Assembly (NCBI RefSeq): GCF_014243445.1
Contig: NZ_JACLQD010000005.1
Span: 310,001 to 374,000, forward strand
Direction of reading: 5' to 3'
Length of the DNA stretch: 64,000 nt
DNA from: Paragemmobacter straminiformis
Lineage (GTDB): Bacteria > Pseudomonadota > Alphaproteobacteria > Rhodobacterales > Rhodobacteraceae
The notes under the pieces are model-generated. The model was given only the letters and a program-made list of their open reading frames with translations. It had not been told where the DNA came from and ran no database searches. A program made the position numbers and the translations under genes. Below, piece after piece: positions 2,117 through 53,290 of this stretch (positions within the stretch are counted from its first letter, which is position 1; the number at the start of each line of letters is the position of its first letter).

Positions 2117-2228
2117 CCTGCGCTGGCGAAAATGGCGGGGAACATGTCGTAAAAGCCCACAACATAGTGCGTTTGGCCCGCTATCAAGTCGCAAACGGGG
2201 CATGAGCCTCCAACGGGAGCACGGGACC

Positions 2229-3905
2229 ATGGCATTCAAGACCGACATCGAGATCGCACGCGAGGCGAAGAAAAAGCCGATCATGGAGATCGGCGCCAAG
2301 CTCGGTATCCCGTCGGAGCATCTGCTGCCCTATGGCCATGACAAGGCCAAGGTGAGCCAGGAGTTCATCAAGTCGCTGGCGGGCAAGAAGGACGGCAAGC
2401 TGATCCTTGTGACCGCGATCAATCCGACGCCTGCGGGCGAAGGCAAGACGACCACGACGGTCGGTCTGGGCGACGGTCTGAACCGCATCGGCAAGAAGGC
2501 CGTGATCTGCATCCGCGAAGCCTCGCTTGGCCCGAACTTCGGCATGAAGGGTGGCGCGGCCGGGGGCGGCTATGCGCAGGTCGTGCCGATGGAGGAGATG
2601 AACCTTCACTTCACCGGCGACTTCCACGCGATCACCTCGGCTCACAACCTGCTGTCGGCCATGATCGACAACCACATCTACTGGGGCAACGAGCTGGACA
2701 TCGACGAGCGTCGCGTGATGTGGCGCCGCGTGATGGATATGAACGACCGCGCGCTGCGCGATATCGTCGTGTCGCTTGGCGGCGTGTCCAACGGCTTCCC
2801 GCGCCAGACCGGTTTCGATATCACGGTGGCGTCGGAAGTCATGGCGATCCTGTGCCTGTCGAACGACCTTGAGGATCTGCAGAAGCGTCTGGGCGACATC
2901 GTCGTGGCCTATACCCGTGCCAAGAAGCCGATCTACTGCCGCGACATCAAGGCCGATGGCGCGATGACCGTGCTGCTCAAGGATGCGATGCAGCCGAACC
3001 TTGTGCAGACGCTGGAGAACAACCCTGCTTTCGTGCATGGCGGCCCGTTTGCCAACATCGCCCACGGCTGCAACTCGGTCATTGCGACCAAGACCGCGCT
3101 GAAGCTGGGTGAATATGTCGTGACCGAAGCCGGTTTCGGCGCGGACCTTGGGGCCGAGAAGTTCTTCGACATCAAGTGCCGCAAAGCGGGCCTGAAGCCT
3201 GCCGCTGCGGTGATCGTGGCCACGGTGCGCGCGATGAAGATGAACGGCGGCGTGGCCAAGGCCGATCTGGGTGCCGAGAATGTCGATGCCGTCAAGAAGG
3301 GCTGCCCGAACCTTGGCCGCCACATCGCCAACGTGAAATCCTTCGGCGTTCCGGTCGTCGTAGCGATCAACCACTTCTACAGCGACACCGATGCCGAAGT
3401 GGCGGCGGTAAAGGCCTTTGTCGCCGAGCAGGGCGCGGAAGCGATCCTGTGCAAGCATTGGGCGAACGGCTCGGCCGGGATCGAGGATCTGGCGCACAAG
3501 GTCGTGGCGCTGGCGGAATCGGGTGCGTCGAACTTTGCCCCGCTCTACCCCGACGAAATGCCGCTGTTCCAGAAGATCGAGACCATCGCCAAGCGCATCT
3601 ACCATGCCGACGAGGTGATTGCCGACAAGTCGATCCGCGACCAGCTCAAGGGCTGGGAAGCGGCGGGCTACGGCCATCTGCCGATCTGCGTGGCCAAGAC
3701 GCAATACAGCTTCACCACCGATCCGACCGTGCGCGGCGCCCCCACGGGCCACACGGTTCCGGTGCGCGAAGTGCGGCTTTCGGCAGGGGCCGGTTTCATC
3801 GTGGTGATCTGCGGCGAGATCATGACCATGCCGGGCCTGCCCAAGGTGCCGTCGGCCGAGGTGATCCGGCTGAACGACCAGGGCAACGTCGAGGGTCTGT
3901 TCTAA
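2229..3905 (+). CDS. fhs: Formate--tetrahydrofolate ligase
   Basis: Joins formate to tetrahydrofolate using ATP, giving 10-formyl-THF; cytoplasmic one-carbon metabolism. The 558-residue length is usual for the family. The ATP site [12 protein letters not shown] (about residues 66-77) and the conserved [20 protein letters not shown] block are intact. An in-frame codon at 2202 would add nine residues, but the ATG at 2229 gives the canonical [10 protein letters not shown] start and has a purine-rich site before it. It heads a cluster with chorismate mutase and two folD genes, so formyl-, methenyl- and methylene-THF can be interconverted by neighbouring products. In marine and photosynthetic relatives this set serves demethylation of betaines and similar compounds (inference here). 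Confidence 0.97.
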
Positions 3906-34185: not shown

Positions 34186-34608
34186 TTTGCGCTGCCCGCC
34201 TTTGCCACAGGTGTTAAATCTCCCATTGTGTTTGCCGCCGCTTTCCCGCTAGGGTCGAAGGGTGCGGGTTGAATCCCGCTGTAGAATTCTCTGCCCCATT
34301 GCAGGTCGCGCCAGACGCGCCGCGACGGGGGAGTCGGATCGGCCGCAAGGTCGTCAGTTTGCCCGGCCAAGTCTTTGACGCAAGCGGGCTTTTGTCAGCA
34401 GAGCCCTCTAAAGGGGTTCTAGAGAGAACCGCGATGACGCGTGCAATGACGAGCGAGAGAGGAGAGGGCTGCCCGACGGGCAGGACCCCGCCACTCGCCC
34501 TGCGCCGCCTCGCCCGAACAAGCCGCCCTTTACCAGCAGATGACGGACCACGTTTGGTGCTTGCACCATCGGGGCCGGATCGGCCGCGCCGGGGCGCATT
34601 GGAACACC
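34186..34608 (+). promoter_or_regulatory. Long leader region upstream of rne
   Basis: About 420 bases without a convincing gene. A weak housekeeping-type promoter may lie near 34226-34256 (TTGTGT, 18 bases, TAGGGT). Downstream are small hairpins: GGTTCT(34415-34420)/AGAACC(34425-34430) and CTGCCC(34469-34474)/GGGCAG(34478-34483). RNase E controls its own message through a long 5' leader in other bacteria, so this region is a candidate for autoregulation (inference). Confidence 0.4.
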
Positions 34609-37377
34609 ATGACCAAGAAAATGCTGATCGATGCCACCCATGCGGAAGAAACCCGCGTCGTGGTGGTGGACGGAAACAAGGTTGAAGAATTCGACTTCGA
34701 GACGGTGAACAAACGGCAGCTTGCCGGAAACATCTATCTCGCCAAGGTTACAAGGGTAGAGCCGTCGTTGCAGGCGGCCTTTGTCGATTACGGCGGCAAC
34801 CGTCACGGGTTTCTGGCATTCGCCGAAATCCACCCCGATTACTACCAGATCCCCGTTGCGGACCGTAAGGCGCTGCTCGACGAAGAGCGCGCCTACAACC
34901 GGGCACAGGACGAGGAAGACAACCGCCGCAGCCGCCCCAAGCCGCGCCCGCGCCCCGAAGGCGCGCGCCGCGATGCGGTGAAGGAAGCCGAGATCGGCGG
35001 CATGGATGTCGTCGATCTGGGCGAGGAAACCGGTGCCGATGCGCTGGTGGAAACCGCGGCGGAACCGGTGGCCGAGGCGCAGGATCACGGGCATGACCAC
35101 CACGGGCATGACCACCATGATCATGACCACGACCATGACCACCACGACCATGACCACGCCGCGCAGGACGAGAACGGCAATGGCGAGTCCGCCCCCGCGC
35201 CCTATCGCGCGATGGACCATGCCAGCGAGACCGATGACGAGATCGAGTCCATCGCGGAAGAGGATGTCTCGGAAGAGATCAGCGCGCCGCGCAAGCCGCG
35301 TCCGCGCCGCTACAAGATTCAGGAAGTGATCAAGGTCCGGCAGATCATGCTGGTGCAGGTGGTCAAGGAAGAGCGCGGCAACAAGGGTGCGGCGCTGACG
35401 ACCTATCTGTCGCTGGCGGGGCGCTATTGCGTCTTGATGCCGAACACGGCGCGGGGCGGCGGGATTTCCCGCAAGATCACGCAGGCGACCGACCGCAAGA
35501 AGCTGAAAGAGATCGCGCAGGAGATCGAGGTGCCGGAAGGCGCCGGTCTGATCATCCGCACGGCGGGGGCCAAGCGCACCAAGCCGGAAATCAAGCGCGA
35601 TTACGAATATCTGATGCGGCTGTGGGAACAGATCCGCGAACTGACGCTGAAATCGATCGCTCCGGCGGCCATCTATGAAGAGGGCAACCTGATCAAGCGG
35701 TCGATCCGCGATCTGTACAGCCGCGAGATCGACGAGATTCTGGTCGAGGGCGAGGCGGGATACCGCACCGCCAAGGATTTCATGCGGATGATCATGCCGA
35801 GCCATGCGCGGCTGGTGAAACGCTATGACGAGACGATGCCGCTTTTCGCGCGCTTTCAGGTCGAAAGCTATCTGGGGGGCATGTTCAACCCCGTCGTGCA
35901 GCTGAAATCGGGCGGTTACATCGTCATCGGCATCACCGAGGCGCTGGTTGCCATCGACGTGAACTCGGGGCGGGCGACGAAAGAGGGGTCCATCGAGGAC
36001 ACCGCTCTCAAGACCAACCTCGAAGCGGCGGAAGAAGTGGCGCGGCAGTTGCGCCTGCGCGACCTTGCCGGTCTGATCGTGATCGACTTCATCGACATGG
36101 AAGAGCGCAAGAACAACGCCGCCGTCGAGAAGCGTCTGAAGGACAAGCTGAAAACGGATCGGGCGCGGATCCAGGTGGGGCGCATCTCGGGCTTTGGCCT
36201 GATGGAGATGAGCCGCCAGCGCCTGCGTCCGGGGATGCTGGAAAGCACCACCCAGCCGTGCAGCCATTGCCACGGCACGGGCCTGATCCGGTCGGACGAC
36301 AGCCTTGGTTTGCAGGTGCTGCGCGCGCTGGAAGAGGAAGGCACGCGCAAGCGGTCGAAGGAAGTGCTGCTGAAAGCGCCGATCGGGATCGTCAATTTCC
36401 TGATCAACCAGAAGCGCGAGCATATCGCGCTGATCGAGGCGCGCTATGGCATGTCGGTGCGGATCGAATGCGATCCGGCGCTGGTGAGCCCCGATTACGT
36501 GATCGAGAAGTTCAAGACGGCGACCCGCGTGGTTCCCGAACAGTCGAGTGTGATTTCGGGCCATGCGGGCCTGATGGGCGCGCCGGTGGACGAGGACGAG
36601 GACGAGGATCTGCCGCTCGAGGACCTTGACGAGGTCGAAGAGGACGAGGCCGCCGAGACCGAGGGCGAGGCCAAGACCGAGGCACGTGCCGCTTCGGCGG
36701 GCGAGGCCAAGGGGGATGGCAACGGCAACGGCAAGAAGAAGCGCCGTCGCCGCCGTCGGCGCAAGGGGTCGGGCAATGGCACGGGCGCGGATGCGCAGGG
36801 CGATGCCGGCAGCGAAGAAGATGGTGACGACGAGGGCGAAGAGGACGGCGCCGACGAGGGTGCAGCCGGTGGCGATGCGGCGGTTGCCGCGCCTGCCGCT
36901 GCGGTCGAGGCCGCCGAGCCTGTCGCGGAAGAGAAGCCGAAGAAGCTGACGCGGGCGCGGGGCGGTGCTGCTGCCACGGCCAAGAAGAAGGCCGAAGCTG
37001 CGGCCGCTGCCGCTGCCGTGACAGAGGCCGCGCCGGTTGGCGAGGAGGCTGCGGGCGAAGCGGTGGCCGAGGCAGCCCCCGAGGCGGAAGCGCCGAAGAA
37101 GAAGCCTGCGAGCCGGTCGCGCGGGACATCGGCCAAGAAGAAGGCCGAGGCTGCGGCGGAAGCGGCTGCGGTCGATGCGGCTGCGGTTGCAGCGCCCGAG
37201 GTCGAGGCGGTTGCCGCACCCGTGGCGGAGGCTGCGGCCGAGACCTTCCCCGCCGATCCGGTGCTGACGGAAACCCCGTCGGAAACGCTGCTGCCCGATC
37301 CGTCGGAAGCCGCGGCGGAGGCTGCCGCCGACCCCGACAAGCCCCGCAAAAAGGGCTGGTGGTCGCTGGGACGCTGA
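34609..37377 (+). CDS. rne: Ribonuclease E
   Basis: 922-residue endoribonuclease of the RNase E/G family, core of the RNA degradosome. The catalytic half holds the S1 domain (about 35-330), the magnesium-binding aspartates in VAIDVNSGR (near 450) and VIDFIDM (near 493), and the Zn-link CSHCHGTG (near 551-558). The S1 domain is split by a long insert (about 100-240) that includes a run of 24 residues (160-183) with 14 His and 8 Asp. The C-terminal third is acidic, Ala-rich and Lys-rich, ending in RKKGWWSLGR, typical of alphaproteobacterial scaffolds. The start is the ATG at 34609. CcsR sRNAs later in the window are likely clients. Confidence 0.95.
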   Translation: MTKKMLIDATHAEETRVVVVDGNKVEEFDFETVNKRQLAGNIYLAKVTRVEPSLQAAFVDYGGNRHGFLAFAEIHPDYYQIPVADRKALLDEERAYNRAQDEEDNRRSRPKPRPRPEGARRDAVKEAEIGGMDVVDLGEETGADALVETAAEPVAEAQDHGHDHHGHDHHDHDHDHDHHDHDHAAQDENGNGESAPAPYRAMDHASETDDEIESIAEEDVSEEISAPRKPRPRRYKIQEVIKVRQIMLVQVVKEERGNKGAALTTYLSLAGRYCVLMPNTARGGGISRKITQATDRKKLKEIAQEIEVPEGAGLIIRTAGAKRTKPEIKRDYEYLMRLWEQIRELTLKSIAPAAIYEEGNLIKRSIRDLYSREIDEILVEGEAGYRTAKDFMRMIMPSHARLVKRYDETMPLFARFQVESYLGGMFNPVVQLKSGGYIVIGITEALVAIDVNSGRATKEGSIEDTALKTNLEAAEEVARQLRLRDLAGLIVIDFIDMEERKNNAAVEKRLKDKLKTDRARIQVGRISGFGLMEMSRQRLRPGMLESTTQPCSHCHGTGLIRSDDSLGLQVLRALEEEGTRKRSKEVLLKAPIGIVNFLINQKREHIALIEARYGMSVRIECDPALVSPDYVIEKFKTATRVVPEQSSVISGHAGLMGAPVDEDEDEDLPLEDLDEVEEDEAAETEGEAKTEARAASAGEAKGDGNGNGKKKRRRRRRRKGSGNGTGADAQGDAGSEEDGDDEGEEDGADEGAAGGDAAVAAPAAAVEAAEPVAEEKPKKLTRARGGAAATAKKKAEAAAAAAAVTEAAPVGEEAAGEAVAEAAPEAEAPKKKPASRSRGTSAKKKAEAAAEAAAVDAAAVAAPEVEAVAAPVAEAAAETFPADPVLTETPSETLLPDPSEAAAEAAADPDKPRKKGWWSLGR

Positions 37378-48668: not shown

Positions 48669-49811
48669 CTAGCGGCGCAGGCGTTCCGCAGCATAGATGG
48701 CAAGCCCTGCGAGCAGGCCCCAGAAGGCGGCGCCGATGCCCGCAAAGGCGGTGCCCGAGGCGGTGACGGCAAGGGTGATGGTGGCGGCAAAACGCTGGTC
48801 GGGCGTGGCGAAGGCGCCGGTCAGCGCCCCCATGAGCGGGCCGAGCAGCGCCAGCGCCACAAGGGCCGTCATCAGCGGCGGCGGCAAGGCGGTGAGCAGG
48901 GCGATGACGACCGGACCCGTCAGCCCCAGCGCGACCCAGACGCCCGCATAGGCAAGACCCACCTTCCAGCGCTGGCTGCGGTCGGGGTGGACATCGTCGC
49001 CCATGCAGATCGCCGCCGTGATGGCGGCCATGTTCACCGTATGCGCCCCGAACAGCGCGGCAAGGGCCGAGATGCCGCCCGTGACCCCGAGGGCGGCGCG
49101 GACCGGCGGCTCGTATCCTGCCGCGCGCATGGTCGCGAAGCCGGGCAGGTTCTGCGAGGCCATCGTGACCAGATAGAGCGGCAGGCCGAGGCCGATCAGG
49201 GCGGCGGCGTGGAAGTCCGGCCGGATCAGCACGGGGGCGGGGGGAATGGCAGGCAAGGCCGGCAGGACGGCGGCCCCCGTGGCGAAGGCCAGCGCAAGGC
49301 CGAGGGCGAGGGCCGCCAGAACCGCGATCGCCGGGTTCTTCAACCGGACAAGGGCGAATACGGCCACCATGGGAAAGACCAGCAGGGGGGCGGCCTGCGC
49401 TGCCCCCGCGCCCTTGAGGCAGAAGGGCAGCAGCACCCCGGCGAGCATCGCCCCTGCGATGCCGTCGGGAATGCGGGCGACCAGCGCGCCAAGCGGGCGC
49501 AGCGCCCCCGTGGCCGCGACCAGCAGCGCCGCGAGGAGAAAGGCCCCCACGCCTTCGGCCATGGTGAAGCCCGTGCTTGCGGCGATCAGGGCGGCGCCGG
49601 GGGTGCTCCAGGCCAGAACCACCGGCACGCGGTGCCATGTGGACAGGATCGCCGTGCCCGCCGCCTTGGCGAAGCAGACGGCCATGACCCAGCTTGCGGT
49701 TTCGGCAGGGCTTGCGCCAAGGGCGGCGGCGGCGGCCAGCACCAGCGCGATGGTCGAGCCGTATCCCACCAGCGCCGCGACGAGGGCTGCCGAAAAAAGC
49801 GATGCACGCAT
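48669..49811 (-). CDS. benE: BenE family transporter (benzoate/H+ symporter-like)
   Basis: 380-residue polytopic membrane protein with 11-12 hydrophobic segments. BenE features include WSTPGAALIA, the GFTMAEGVGAFLL helix and the pair AGYEPPVRAALGVTGGISALAALFGAHTVNMAAITAAICMG. Family members import benzoate, but no benzoate catabolism is in the window, so the substrate is open. It converges with the EcsC gene with zero spacing. Confidence 0.88.
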   Translation of the reverse strand: MRASLFSAALVAALVGYGSTIALVLAAAAALGASPAETASWVMAVCFAKAAGTAILSTWHRVPVVLAWSTPGAALIAASTGFTMAEGVGAFLLAALLVAATGALRPLGALVARIPDGIAGAMLAGVLLPFCLKGAGAAQAAPLLVFPMVAVFALVRLKNPAIAVLAALALGLALAFATGAAVLPALPAIPPAPVLIRPDFHAAALIGLGLPLYLVTMASQNLPGFATMRAAGYEPPVRAALGVTGGISALAALFGAHTVNMAAITAAICMGDDVHPDRSQRWKVGLAYAGVWVALGLTGPVVIALLTALPPPLMTALVALALLGPLMGALTGAFATPDQRFAATITLAVTASGTAFAGIGAAFWGLLAGLAIYAAERLRR

Positions 49812-49878
49812 GAAGAACCCCGTCCTGATCGGGGCGGACTATCGGCAAAGCGCGGGGGTGATGCAAGCGGCCTCGCCC

Positions 49879-49966
49879 CTTCCTCTTGCCCCAAATATCC
49901 TCGGGGGGTGAGGGCCGGAACGGCCCGAGGGGGGCGGAAGGCCCCCCTTTGCCTTGCCCCGCGTGC
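49879..49966 (-). repeat. Full copy of the GAGGATATTTGG repeat family, minus strand
   Basis: Read on the minus strand: G-run/C-run hairpin (GGGGGGCCTTCCGCCCCCC), inverted GGCC/GGCC segment, TCACCCCCCGAGGATATTTGG and GCAAGAGGAAG. It is nearly identical in plan to the copy at 29820-29892. The gap up to 50053 holds nothing else I can name. Confidence 0.8.
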
Positions 49967-50053
49967 ATCCCGCAAGGCGCCGCGCGCATGCGCATCGGGC
50001 CGGCGGCGGCATGCCGCGCGGTGGGGTCAGGCTTTGACGGGGGGGGGAAGGGC

Positions 50054-50127
50054 GCGGCGGTTCCGGGGAGGAGGTCGGAACCGCCGCTCTTTACGATCTG
50101 CCCCAGGGAGGAGGAGGGGGCCTATCG
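50054..50127 (-). ncRNA. ccsR4: CcsR-type sRNA, fourth copy
   Basis: Minus-strand RNA of two hairpins. First (transcribed first) 50127-50094: stems CGAT and GCCCC separated by a 2x2 internal loop, 12-nt loop whose plus-strand sequence is AGGGAGGAGGAG. Second 50087-50054: perfect 12-bp stem GCGGCGGTTCCG with loop GGGAGGAGGT (plus strand). As RNA the loops read CUCCUCCUCCCU and ACCUCCUCCC, the anti-Shine-Dalgarno motif of the CcsR/cuckoo RNA family. Ends are estimated from the hairpins. Last of four tandem copies. Confidence 0.8.
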
Positions 50128-50173
50128 ATCCTGTTCGGGCGCGTGCCGCATCGGCGCTGCCCTGAAGTTTAGC

Positions 50174-50242
50174 GCGACGACCCCGGGGAGGAGGTCGGGG
50201 TCGTCGCTGGTCCGAAGGGCCAGGGAGGAGGAGGGCCCGTCG
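50174..50242 (-). ncRNA. ccsR3: CcsR-type sRNA, third copy
   Basis: First hairpin 50242-50213: GGGCC/GGCCC stem plus outer CGA/TCG pairs, loop AGGGAGGAGGAG on the plus strand. Second hairpin 50207-50174: perfect 12-bp stem GCGACGACCCCG, loop GGGAGGAGGT. The stem sequences differ from the other copies while the loops are the same. Confidence 0.82.
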
Positions 50243-50279
50243 TACACCGGTGGAAGCGCGAGGGCTTCCGGAAAGGGTC

Positions 50280-50350
50280 GCGGCGACCTCAGGGAGGAGG
50301 AGGAGGTCGCCGCTTCTACGATCGGCCCAGGGAGGAGGTTGGGCCTTTCG
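50280..50350 (-). ncRNA. ccsR2: CcsR-type sRNA, second copy
   Basis: First hairpin 50350-50319: GGCCCA/TGGGCC stem with outer CGA/TCG, loop GGGAGGAGGT on the plus strand. Second hairpin 50313-50280: perfect 11-bp stem GCGGCGACCTC, loop AGGGAGGAGGAG. The stronger, GC-rich stem is always the second, which fits a terminator or processing end. Confidence 0.82.
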
Positions 50351-50396
50351 GTCTGGTTTGGACGCTTTCGCCGCAGCGGGGCATCCGGATCAAAGT

Positions 50397-50465
50397 GCGG
50401 CGACGCCAGGGAGGAGGAGAAGCGCCGCCGCTTTTGCCATGAACCCCGGGAGGAGGTGGGGTTCA
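50397..50465 (-). ncRNA. ccsR1: CcsR-type sRNA, first copy
   Basis: First hairpin 50465-50440: perfect 8-bp stem TGAACCCC/GGGGTTCA, loop GGGAGGAGGT on the plus strand. Second hairpin 50431-50397: GCGGCG/CGCCGC and CGC/GCG with one mismatch, loop containing AGGGAGGAGGAG. It begins 12 bases after the ccaF1 stop codon, so it is co-transcribed with that gene and would be released by processing. Confidence 0.82.
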
Positions 50466-50476
50466 GCAAAGAAACC

Positions 50477-50695
50477 TTATTTGCCGTAAGCCGCTTCGCG
50501 GGCCACGGTTGCGATGTCGAAACGCGACAGGCCCAGATCGGCAAGCTCGCGGTCGGTGAGGATGTTCAGCTCGCGCACGGTCTGGTTATAGACAGCGCGG
50601 CGTGCGATCATCGTCTTGAGTTGCGCCAGAGCGCCGGAGAAGCGGTCAGCCAGAGTCACGTTGGCGGCACGGGCGGTAAAGTTCACATAAGCCAT
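50477..50695 (-). CDS. ccaF1: DUF1127 protein, CcaF1-like RNA-binding protein
   Basis: 72-residue basic protein with the DUF1127 C-terminal motif TVRELNILTDRELADLGLSRFDIATVAREAAYGK. In Rhodobacter sphaeroides the equivalent small gene (RSP_6037, CcaF1) binds RNA and takes part in maturation of the CcsR sRNAs encoded just downstream (from memory of the literature). The ATG at 50695 excludes the longer frame to 50812, which would cross the promoter. The gene and the four sRNAs form one stress-type operon on the minus strand. Confidence 0.9.
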   Translation of the reverse strand: MAYVNFTARAANVTLADRFSGALAQLKTMIARRAVYNQTVRELNILTDRELADLGLSRFDIATVAREAAYGK

Positions 50696-50759
50696 TTCAT
50701 CAGCCTCAGTTTGCGGTTTCCATCGAACGACGTTCTTGGTTGCGTCGCTGTTAGGGGTA

Positions 50760-50787
50760 ACATGGGGCAAATGCTGCAGTTGCACAA
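50760..50787 (-). promoter_or_regulatory. RpoH-type promoter of ccaF1-ccsR
   Basis: On the minus strand TTGTGC (50787-50782), a 14-base spacer and CCCCATGT (50767-50760) match the heat-shock sigma consensus (CTTGAA, 13-15 bases, CCCCATnT). Transcription would start near 50752, giving a leader of about 55 bases. RpoHI/RpoHII control is known for the R. sphaeroides operon. Confidence 0.65.
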
Positions 50788-50966
50788 TGCAGCCTCTCCG
50801 CAATGCCGCCATGCAGCATGCGCATGGCTGGACGTCGTGAAATTGTCATGATTAACAATGGTATCGCCGAAAATATGGGCGTTCGGCGAACAGTCCCTTG
50901 CGCTTTGGCTGCAAGATGCGGACTTAGGTATGTAAAGGTTGCCATGAAACAGAAGCCGAGGATGCC

Positions 50967-52040: not shown

Positions 52041-52167
52041 CGCGCGGGTAAGGCGCCTGTCGCAACCGGACGGCGCGGCAAGGCCCCGAAGCGGTGACGG
52101 CGGCGCTGCGTGGGGCGGGTGCGCACGGGAAAGCGCGGGACGCGGCATCACGGCGAATCACTTTGGC

Positions 52168-52474
52168 GGGAATGCGTGGGAAATCCGGGGTCAAACCCCG
52201 GATTTCTGCATTCCGGCGCTGGAATCGCTGCGGATTCTTCGGGTCTGGGGGCCTATCCGAAAGGTTGGTGCTGAAAACTTGGGAATATGCGGGAATGCCG
52301 TTTCGGTGAGTGAAATCACTAGATGTTGTGTGCGCTGCAAATCGTTTGCCGAGATGTGGCAATTAGGGCGGCAAAACTGGGGTCGCGTGGCGGTTTTGGC
52401 CTTGTCTTTCGGGGCGTTCGGCGGGTTTTGACCCAAAAATTTCCGTTGCTTCCCATGAAATCCCGTGGCATCCC
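52168..52474. promoter_or_regulatory. Three groups of GGGAA/GGGAT repeats with 10-base period (candidate MraZ boxes)
   Basis: Plus strand: GGGAA at 52168 and 52178; GGGAA at 52280 and 52290. Minus strand: GGGAT, GGGAT, GGGAA, GGAAA and GGGTC at exact 10-base steps from 52474 to 52430. MraZ of other bacteria binds TGGGN repeats separated by 5 bases upstream of its own gene, the same period. The region lies 300-600 bases before mraZ. Confidence 0.5.
52169..52214. terminator. Strong compound hairpin after mrp
   Basis: The inner 10-bp stem AAATCCGGGG (52181-52190)/CCCCGGATTT (52196-52205), loop TCAAA, is extended by an outer 7-bp stem GGAATGC (52169-52175)/GCATTCC (52208-52214). There is no T-run. 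It may end mrp transcription or fold in a leader of the dcw transcript. Confidence 0.55.
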
Positions 52475-52774
52475 TTGGTCATTCGATGACGGCGTGACGA
52501 TCAAAGCTGGGGCAGCTCCAAGACCCCGAACAGGCGACAGTCAGGCTCATACAGGCACCCGCTTTCATCGAACCAAGAGATCCGGCGCGCGAGCGAGCAG
52601 ACATCTCCCCCAGGTGGCGCGCGTAGCTGGACGCCCAGCGATGGGACAGGCGGCGGATCGAGCAGTGGCAGCAGCTCGATCCGCCGTTCCCGTTTTCAGG
52701 GTCCGGTTTTGCCGGACAGGGGCCTGAGCGGAACGAGGGACCTTTAACGGCTGCACGAAGGGGACCGGCACCAC
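52475..52774 (+). promoter_or_regulatory. mraZ leader with a 13-bp hairpin
   Basis: CGGCGGATCGAGC (52651-52663) pairs perfectly with GCTCGATCCGCCG (52674-52686), loop AGTGGCAGCA, and a smaller hairpin GTCCGG/CCGGAC follows at 52701-52717. The ribosome binding site AAGGGGACC is at about 52758-52766. No gene is seen in the 730 bases between mrp and mraZ; the hairpins suggest a structured leader. Confidence 0.55.
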
Positions 52775-53290
52775 ATGTCGGAGGCATTCAGAGGCGAATT
52801 CACCCAAAGGGTGGATGGGAAGGCGCGGGTTTCGATTCCCGCCGCGTTCCGTCGCGTGCTGGAAGCCGGCGACCCCGACAGCCCCCGCAAGCGCATTGTC
52901 ATGGTCTATGGCGACTCGCGCCGCAAATACACCGAATGCTACACGATGGCCGGTGCCGCGGCGCTTGAGGAGAAGATCAAGAGGCTGGCGCTCGGGTCGG
53001 ACCGGCGGCGGATGCTTGAACGCAACATGATCACGCTTTCGGTTACGCTCGAGATCGATGACGACGGGCGGATCGTGCTGCCGCCCAAGGTGCGCGAGAA
53101 ATGCGGCATCTCGCCCGAGGATGTGGCCAAGGGCGCCGAGGCGGTCTTTGCCGGTGCGCTGGATACGTTCCAGCTTTGGAAATCCGATGTCTATGATGCC
53201 GAAATCCTGCGGGCGGCCGAAGCGGACCTTGCCAGCCTGCCCGAAGGTGTGGACATCCTGTCGCTGCTGAGCGACGACGAAGGGGTCTGA
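52775..53290 (+). CDS. mraZ: Transcriptional regulator MraZ
   Basis: 171-residue protein with two SpoVT-AbrB-like MraZ repeats (RVDGKARVSIPAAFRRVL and EIDDDGRIVLPPKVREKCG). It is the first gene of the division and cell wall cluster, whose promoter it binds and represses in other bacteria. The candidate boxes upstream fit autoregulation. It is longer than enterobacterial MraZ (152 residues) because of a C-terminal tail, as in other alphaproteobacteria. Confidence 0.94.
   Translation: MSEAFRGEFTQRVDGKARVSIPAAFRRVLEAGDPDSPRKRIVMVYGDSRRKYTECYTMAGAAALEEKIKRLALGSDRRRMLERNMITLSVTLEIDDDGRIVLPPKVREKCGISPEDVAKGAEAVFAGALDTFQLWKSDVYDAEILRAAEADLASLPEGVDILSLLSDDEGV

Follow-up and report, generated by a model that had tools for sequence, protein, structure and literature searches.

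The ccaF1-CcsR locus of Paragemmobacter straminiformis: four putative anti-Shine-Dalgarno RNA units on covarying stems behind a conserved promoter element

Results and Discussion

The 64,000-nucleotide stretch of the Paragemmobacter straminiformis genome that we analysed (the window) carries the ccaF1-CcsR operon as described in R. sphaeroides, a locus of an already known kind. On the minus strand, a promoter region is followed by a DUF1127 gene and then by eight hairpins in four units (50475–50049). The best explanation, in which we have high confidence, is an operon that encodes CcaF1 and four processed small RNAs (sRNAs) with anti-Shine-Dalgarno (anti-SD) loops. The sequence itself points to a single RNA strand with four units, to anti-SD loops that are invariant while their stems covary, and to a conserved promoter region; co-transcription, maturation by RNase E and CcaF1, Hfq binding and stress induction would carry over by analogy with R. 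sphaeroides. The new part may be the conserved promoter element, which relatives also carry at carbon-storage genes.

The ccaF1 gene and the CcsR array

The DUF1127 gene that the first-pass annotation placed upstream of the hairpins is real. It lies at 50477–50695 (minus strand), has 72 codons counted from the ATG at 50695, and encodes a 72-aa protein that matches PF06568 at 43 bits and aligns with its relatives; a comparison with NCBIfam gave no match. Among the matches listed, from which records very near the window may be omitted, the nearest CcaF1 proteins are those of two Rhodobacteraceae metagenome assemblies (L043, 92%; L034, 82%), followed in identity rank by that of Tabrizicola sp. 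TH137 (75%). A divergent mrp gene lies upstream of ccaF1 in 54 of the 63 loci with enough flanking sequence. The window also has mraZ at 52775–53290, and the gap between mrp and mraZ spans 52041–52774 (plus strand). In R. sphaeroides, the sRNA UpsM is made from the 5′ UTR of mraZ (PMC7866481).

All eight loops contain CCUCCUCCC. The minus-strand CCTCCTCCC cores lie at 50448–50456, 50409–50417, 50330–50338, 50292–50300, 50223–50231, 50186–50194, 50106–50114 and 50066–50074; the window has these eight only, all in the array, whereas shuffled sequences had a mean of 1.25 and none of 100 reached eight. This bears out the proposal of eight hairpins in a row behind the DUF1127 gene with near-invariant loops. 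Counted from the first base of the stop codon of ccaF1, the first core begins after 23 nt; cores inside one unit are 37–40 nt apart, and the step from unit to unit is 69–80 nt.

Membership in the CcsR family, as first proposed, is supported by the Rfam CcsR1 model (RF02791, gathering score 65.3 bits), by the DUF1127 gene and by the conservation of the array in relatives. Of the covariance-model search proposed at the outset, copy 1 (50392–50475, minus strand) gave the expected match at 89.2 bits, but copies 2 (50275–50353), 3 (50169–50247) and 4 (50049–50130), on the same strand, stayed below gathering at 53.4, 45.3 and 41.3 bits. Their E values are nonetheless 2.2e-8 or better, and they appear to be CcsR-like units of the array of copy 1. 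Beyond these four copies, RF02791 had no match at E 0.001 in the 4.12-Mb genome. The alpha-r14 model (RF02344, gathering score 58.8 bits) reached 47.2 bits at best, below gathering, and its matches, like those of CcsR1, are all on the minus strand. Other Rfam matches (6C, gntR-DTE, ar7 and others) fell far under their cut-offs and were set aside. The locus also has the features that define cuckoo RNAs (PMC4504443): 2–4 hairpins per RNA, variable helices and a conserved loop motif.

All four units fold into two hairpins, with z-scores of −4.3 to −6.1 on the minus strand (−6.05, −4.59, −4.37 and −4.34 for copies 1 to 4) and −2.4 to −3.8 on the plus strand. The plan of a weak first and a strong second hairpin holds in all four; across 62 loci, 226 of 250 units have the stronger hairpin in second place. 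In an 8 × 8 table of stem arms, all four strong second stems find their best partner in their own arm. Among the four weak first stems, those of hairpins 3, 5 and 7 pair equally well or better with the arm of another copy. The described swap in loop type is present, copies 1 and 2 having the short loop first and copies 3 and 4 the long one (S-L, S-L, L-S, L-S). Because the short/long order varies among loci, and the swap of the window is not conserved in other genera, it looks like lineage-specific drift.

The last hairpin of copy 4 likely forms the 3′ end. Behind it lies a C-rich tail (50039–50053, minus strand) without a U run (at most two T in any 8 of the 51 bases past the last loop core), and no intrinsic (Rho-independent) terminator was found on the minus strand at the 3′ end of the array. 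Elsewhere, a run with 7 T in 8 bases comes within 51 nt past the last exact core in 12 of 68 loci. Where such a T-rich run follows, the last cuckoo hairpin may double as a terminator.

Distribution and a possible role in cis

The family is widespread: of 394 family genomes, 324 have an RF02791 match at E 0.001 or better (18 above gathering). Relatives share the plan of the array: 67 of 73 CcaF1 relatives have at least one CCTCCTCCC behind the gene, with up to 16 copies, and in 60 of 68 loci the distance from the start of the stop codon to the first core is 19–28 nt. No CCTCCTCCC loops were found upstream of ccaF1 or on the opposite strand in the available stretches of the relatives. The six relatives without loops are L077, whose contig ends, L080, L089, L103, L104 and L105. 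By eye, L089 keeps hairpins with shortened loops and L080 has hairpins without the motif. Both keep the promoter element and have no exact CCUCCUCCC loop.

Arrays also occur as orphans. Among 50 inspected CcsR-type loci, a non-random set (29 from the best RF02791 matches, 20 picked on purpose elsewhere, and L211), 15 have no DUF1127 match within 700 nt, a call that a strongly diverged DUF1127 gene could escape. CcaF1 is therefore not always at hand in cis. The promoter element is present at six CcsR-type arrays without a DUF1127 match (L211, at 1690–2157, L252, L286, L300, L306 and L307).

These data bear on a very improbable alternative, in which the array would chiefly be a set of tandem 3′-UTR hairpins that stabilise or terminate the ccaF1 mRNA in cis, with loops bound by a protein such as CcaF1 and no pairing in trans. 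The T-rich runs as possible terminators and the narrow spacing between stop codon and first core agree with such a role, but a terminator or stabiliser has no need of up to 16 hairpins with one invariant loop, and some arrays stand without a DUF1127 match nearby. Furthermore, the R. sphaeroides units are processed, bind Hfq and act on flhR mRNA (PMC8307010).

Covariation and the RNA strand

The claim of conserved loops on covarying stems was upheld in an alignment of 31 first units, including that of the window, out of 52 that follow the spacing rule. In these related sequences, 91.2% of 713 stem cells are paired (none of 500 shuffles was as high) and 18 of 23 stem pairs changed on both sides; the structure was folded from the window copy, itself one of the aligned sequences, which favours paired cells and, less so, double changes. 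Sliding the register lowers pairing to 34–56%. Arm scores for 555 hairpins from 68 loci averaged 23.7 for true arms, 12.0 for arms swapped between hairpins, 12.3 for arms swapped in the same array and 7.4 for shuffled flanks, and 48% of true hairpins score above 95% of the swapped ones.

The strand of the gene had been named as the RNA strand. Stem cells of the aligned first units hold 58 G-U against 18 A-C, so the minus strand is likely the RNA strand; the lower stem of hairpin 1, taken by itself, has G-U and A-C in balance (14 and 13). The opposite reading, in which GGGAGGAGG loops of a plus-strand RNA or overlapping reading frames would be functional, is very improbable: the long stop-free plus-strand frames across the array (48987–50165 and 49886–50851) are expected of stop-poor G/C repeats and most likely artefacts, and the G-U excess, the weaker plus-strand z-scores and the confinement of CcsR1 and ar14 matches to the minus strand all speak against it.

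Proposed mechanism

In R. sphaeroides, ccaF1 is followed by CcsR1–4 behind an RpoHI/HII promoter, with RNase E processing and CcaF1 as maturation factor (PMC10253847); PNPase takes part in CcsR turnover (PMC7866481). By analogy, an RpoH-type promoter would yield one transcript from near 50752, which would be translated into CcaF1. RNase E, with CcaF1 taking part, would then cut the 3′ untranslated part into four sRNAs, as shown in R. sphaeroides. Each sRNA would display two anti-SD loops on its stems; by pairing with purine-rich ribosome-binding sites, the loops would make target mRNAs less stable or less translated, as proposed for the related cuckoo RNAs. The weak first hairpin may be able to open and the strong second hairpin, judging from its conservation, would protect the 3′ end after processing. 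Because the stems are free to drift, the multiple copies would mainly raise the dose of one invariant loop. Termination would occur at the C-rich tail, perhaps assisted by Rho, given that no U run follows the last hairpin. CcaF1 may do more than simply help, since its excess interferes with CcsR maturation in R. sphaeroides (PMC8307010).

The first-pass annotation also pointed to a C1 gene cluster and rne in the window. Both fhs (FTHFS, 2202–3905) and rne (RNase E/G, 34540–37377) are present, yet at about 46 and 13 kb from the array they are too distant to be evidence for a C1 role. The putative C1 role of CcsR RNAs rests instead on work in R. sphaeroides. A class III alcohol/glutathione-formaldehyde dehydrogenase is encoded in the genome (TIGR02818, 587 bits), and that C1 branch therefore exists.

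We claim no target from a prediction by perfect complement. The genome has 31 CCTCCTCCC sites, of which 23 lie outside the array; the reversed pattern has 28. Among the 22 of these 23 inspected, six (L107, L109, L112, L114, L115 and L124) have GGGAGGAGG followed after 3–13 nt by the start codon of an ORF of 60 codons or more, and two of those starts are ATG (L114 and L115); long open frames span most sites anyway. Nor do we claim that CCTCCTCCC is avoided outside the array: on the opposite strand, each of 36 words alike occurs 0–2 times.

A conserved element in the ccaF1 promoter

The element TTGTGCAACTGCAGCA (50772–50787, minus strand) lies over the −35 region and is a candidate operator of the type bound by PhaR, the PHB-sensing repressor. 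In 71 of 74 loci, including the window, the 230 nt upstream of ccaF1 contain its TTGTGCA half, compared with four occurrences in 194,544 nt further upstream; that of L103, one of the 71, lacks the second half and looks like chance. Aligned promoters read TTGTGCA-N2-YGCAGCA, then CCCATgTT, then AACA. The TTG at 50787 would fit a −35 and AACA a start, predicted near 50752, with CCCCATGTT (50759–50767, minus strand) as the candidate −10 of an RpoH-type promoter (columns 23–28 and 35–37 are conserved). The RpoH-type sigma factor is inferred from the R. sphaeroides operon (PMC10253847). An E. coli-type RpoH consensus with up to three mismatches is present in 10 of 74 loci versus 4% of shuffles; at four or five mismatches the difference is small.

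The exact TTGTGCANNNGCAGCA is found at a single site in this genome, and with up to two mismatches at 210 sites versus 116 for the reversed pattern. Across the family, TTGTGCANNYGCAGCA occurs in 76 of 100 genomes at 115 sites, against three for the reversed pattern. We classified 113 of these, leaving out the sites of G012 and G050: 56 have DUF1127 and loops, five have DUF1127 without loops within 700 nt, six have loops only and 46 have neither. Several of the 46 lie inside open frames and may be chance. Their recurrent neighbours, named by eye from N-termini, are an HpcH/HpaI-aldolase (malyl-CoA-lyase-like) and/or DUF1611 DgcN (eight sites), thiolase (two) and a ParA-like ATPase (two).

We checked ten proteins from nine of these 46 loci against models. 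In L278, a PHA synthase (PhaC_N, 250.9 bits) flanks the site on one side and a PHB depolymerase (TIGR01849, 579.7 bits) on the other. For L280, the model confirmed the depolymerase (570.3 bits), and PhaC was named by eye. A PhaR gene is present on both PHB contigs (G061:C129 and G019:C115). Models also fit an aldolase (L209, PF03328), DgcN (L221), thiolase (L224), pyruvate carboxylase (L312, partial), pntA (L254), rpiA (L223) and a ParA-type ATPase (L246).

The element is thus common, in relatives, to orphan CcsR arrays and to phaC-phaZ, malyl-CoA-lyase-like, thiolase, pyruvate carboxylase and pntA genes. From this pattern we tentatively propose, at somewhat under even confidence, that ccaF1-CcsR transcription is tied to carbon storage and that PhaR, or another regulator of the same genes, binds the element as its operator. 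The repressor would be drawn off the element by PHB granules and, together with RpoH under stress, this would release the anti-SD sRNAs. If the operator is of PhaR type, a stress-induced anti-SD sRNA array would be linked to the carbon-storage state.

In Sinorhizobium meliloti, the PHB depolymerase is a target of PhaR (AniA), which has a further, similar site, CAATTGTGCACCGCAGCATTA, at the sRNA gene mmgR (PMC12542648). This site has TTGTGCA and GCAGCA in common with the ccaF1 element. The spacing from TGC to GCA is 3 both at mmgR and in CTGCNNNGCAG, the sequence bound in R. sphaeroides (PMC12542648), whereas the ccaF1 element has a spacer of 4 and so departs from the PhaR form TGC-N3-GCA; the B. 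diazoefficiens consensus is TGCRNYGCASMA (PMC6201568). In this genome, spacing 3 occurs near a phasin-like gene (22.0 bits, below the cut-off of 24.9), and two relatives have the 4-base form between phaC and phaZ. Because 96 of 100 family genomes have a PhaR match, its presence is nearly uninformative as a test of the operator reading. Among the four genomes that lack one, G003 (100% complete) carries a single element, away from ccaF1 arrays, and G090 (97%) and G033 (74%) carry no element. In G098 (84%) there are three elements, including one at a ccaF1 array (L266); this argues against PhaR unless the gene is missing from the incomplete assembly. The main text of the two PhaR papers cited here (PMC12542648 and PMC6201568) makes no mention of DUF1127, and a literature search that left subscription work mostly outside gave, among the matches listed, no link of PhaR to CcsR, DUF1127 or the motif.

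A palindrome, TGTTACCCCTAACA, lies over the start site (50749–50762). Its form TGTTA-N4-TAACA, which we take to be the CceR motif, occurs three times in the genome (the reversed pattern, zero): its neighbours, named by eye, are an edd-like gene, the gene of a LacI-type regulator and ccaF1. Of 71 aligned promoters, 38 have TGTT-N6-AACA, and about the start-site axis 284 of 469 cells are complementary, versus 49–143 at shifted axes. The case for a CceR-type operator is weak: the palindrome of the window lacks the CG centre that 16 of 67 distinct promoters have, and half of it overlaps the −10. The ccaF1 form is absent from the 12 other genomes of the genus, the close relatives L034 and L043 read TCTT, and the symmetry is kept in part of the relatives only, the nearest not among them. 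We set this candidate aside.

Comparison with known systems

The alpha-r14/NfeR1 (RF02344) and cuckoo RNAs share the variable stems and CCUCCUCCC loops (PMC10746234, PMC3927594 and PMC4504443), although alpha-r14 has three hairpins in one RNA and the units of the window two. Within the CcsR1 family (RF02791), the window differs in that copies 2–4 score under the Rfam threshold. The CIN1 locus, as described in PMC10253847, has the same short DUF1127 gene and CcsR-like array on the same strand, with no difference seen. The R. sphaeroides operon has a Rho-independent terminator, a feature that is not defining (PMC10253847), whereas the array of the window lacks a U-run terminator. Otherwise, by its published description, the R. 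sphaeroides ccaF1-CcsR1–4 operon is built alike, with four two-hairpin RNAs that have CCUCCUCCC loops behind a DUF1127 gene, and it probably also lies near mraZ, as the names RSs0680a–d and RSs0682/UpsM suggest.
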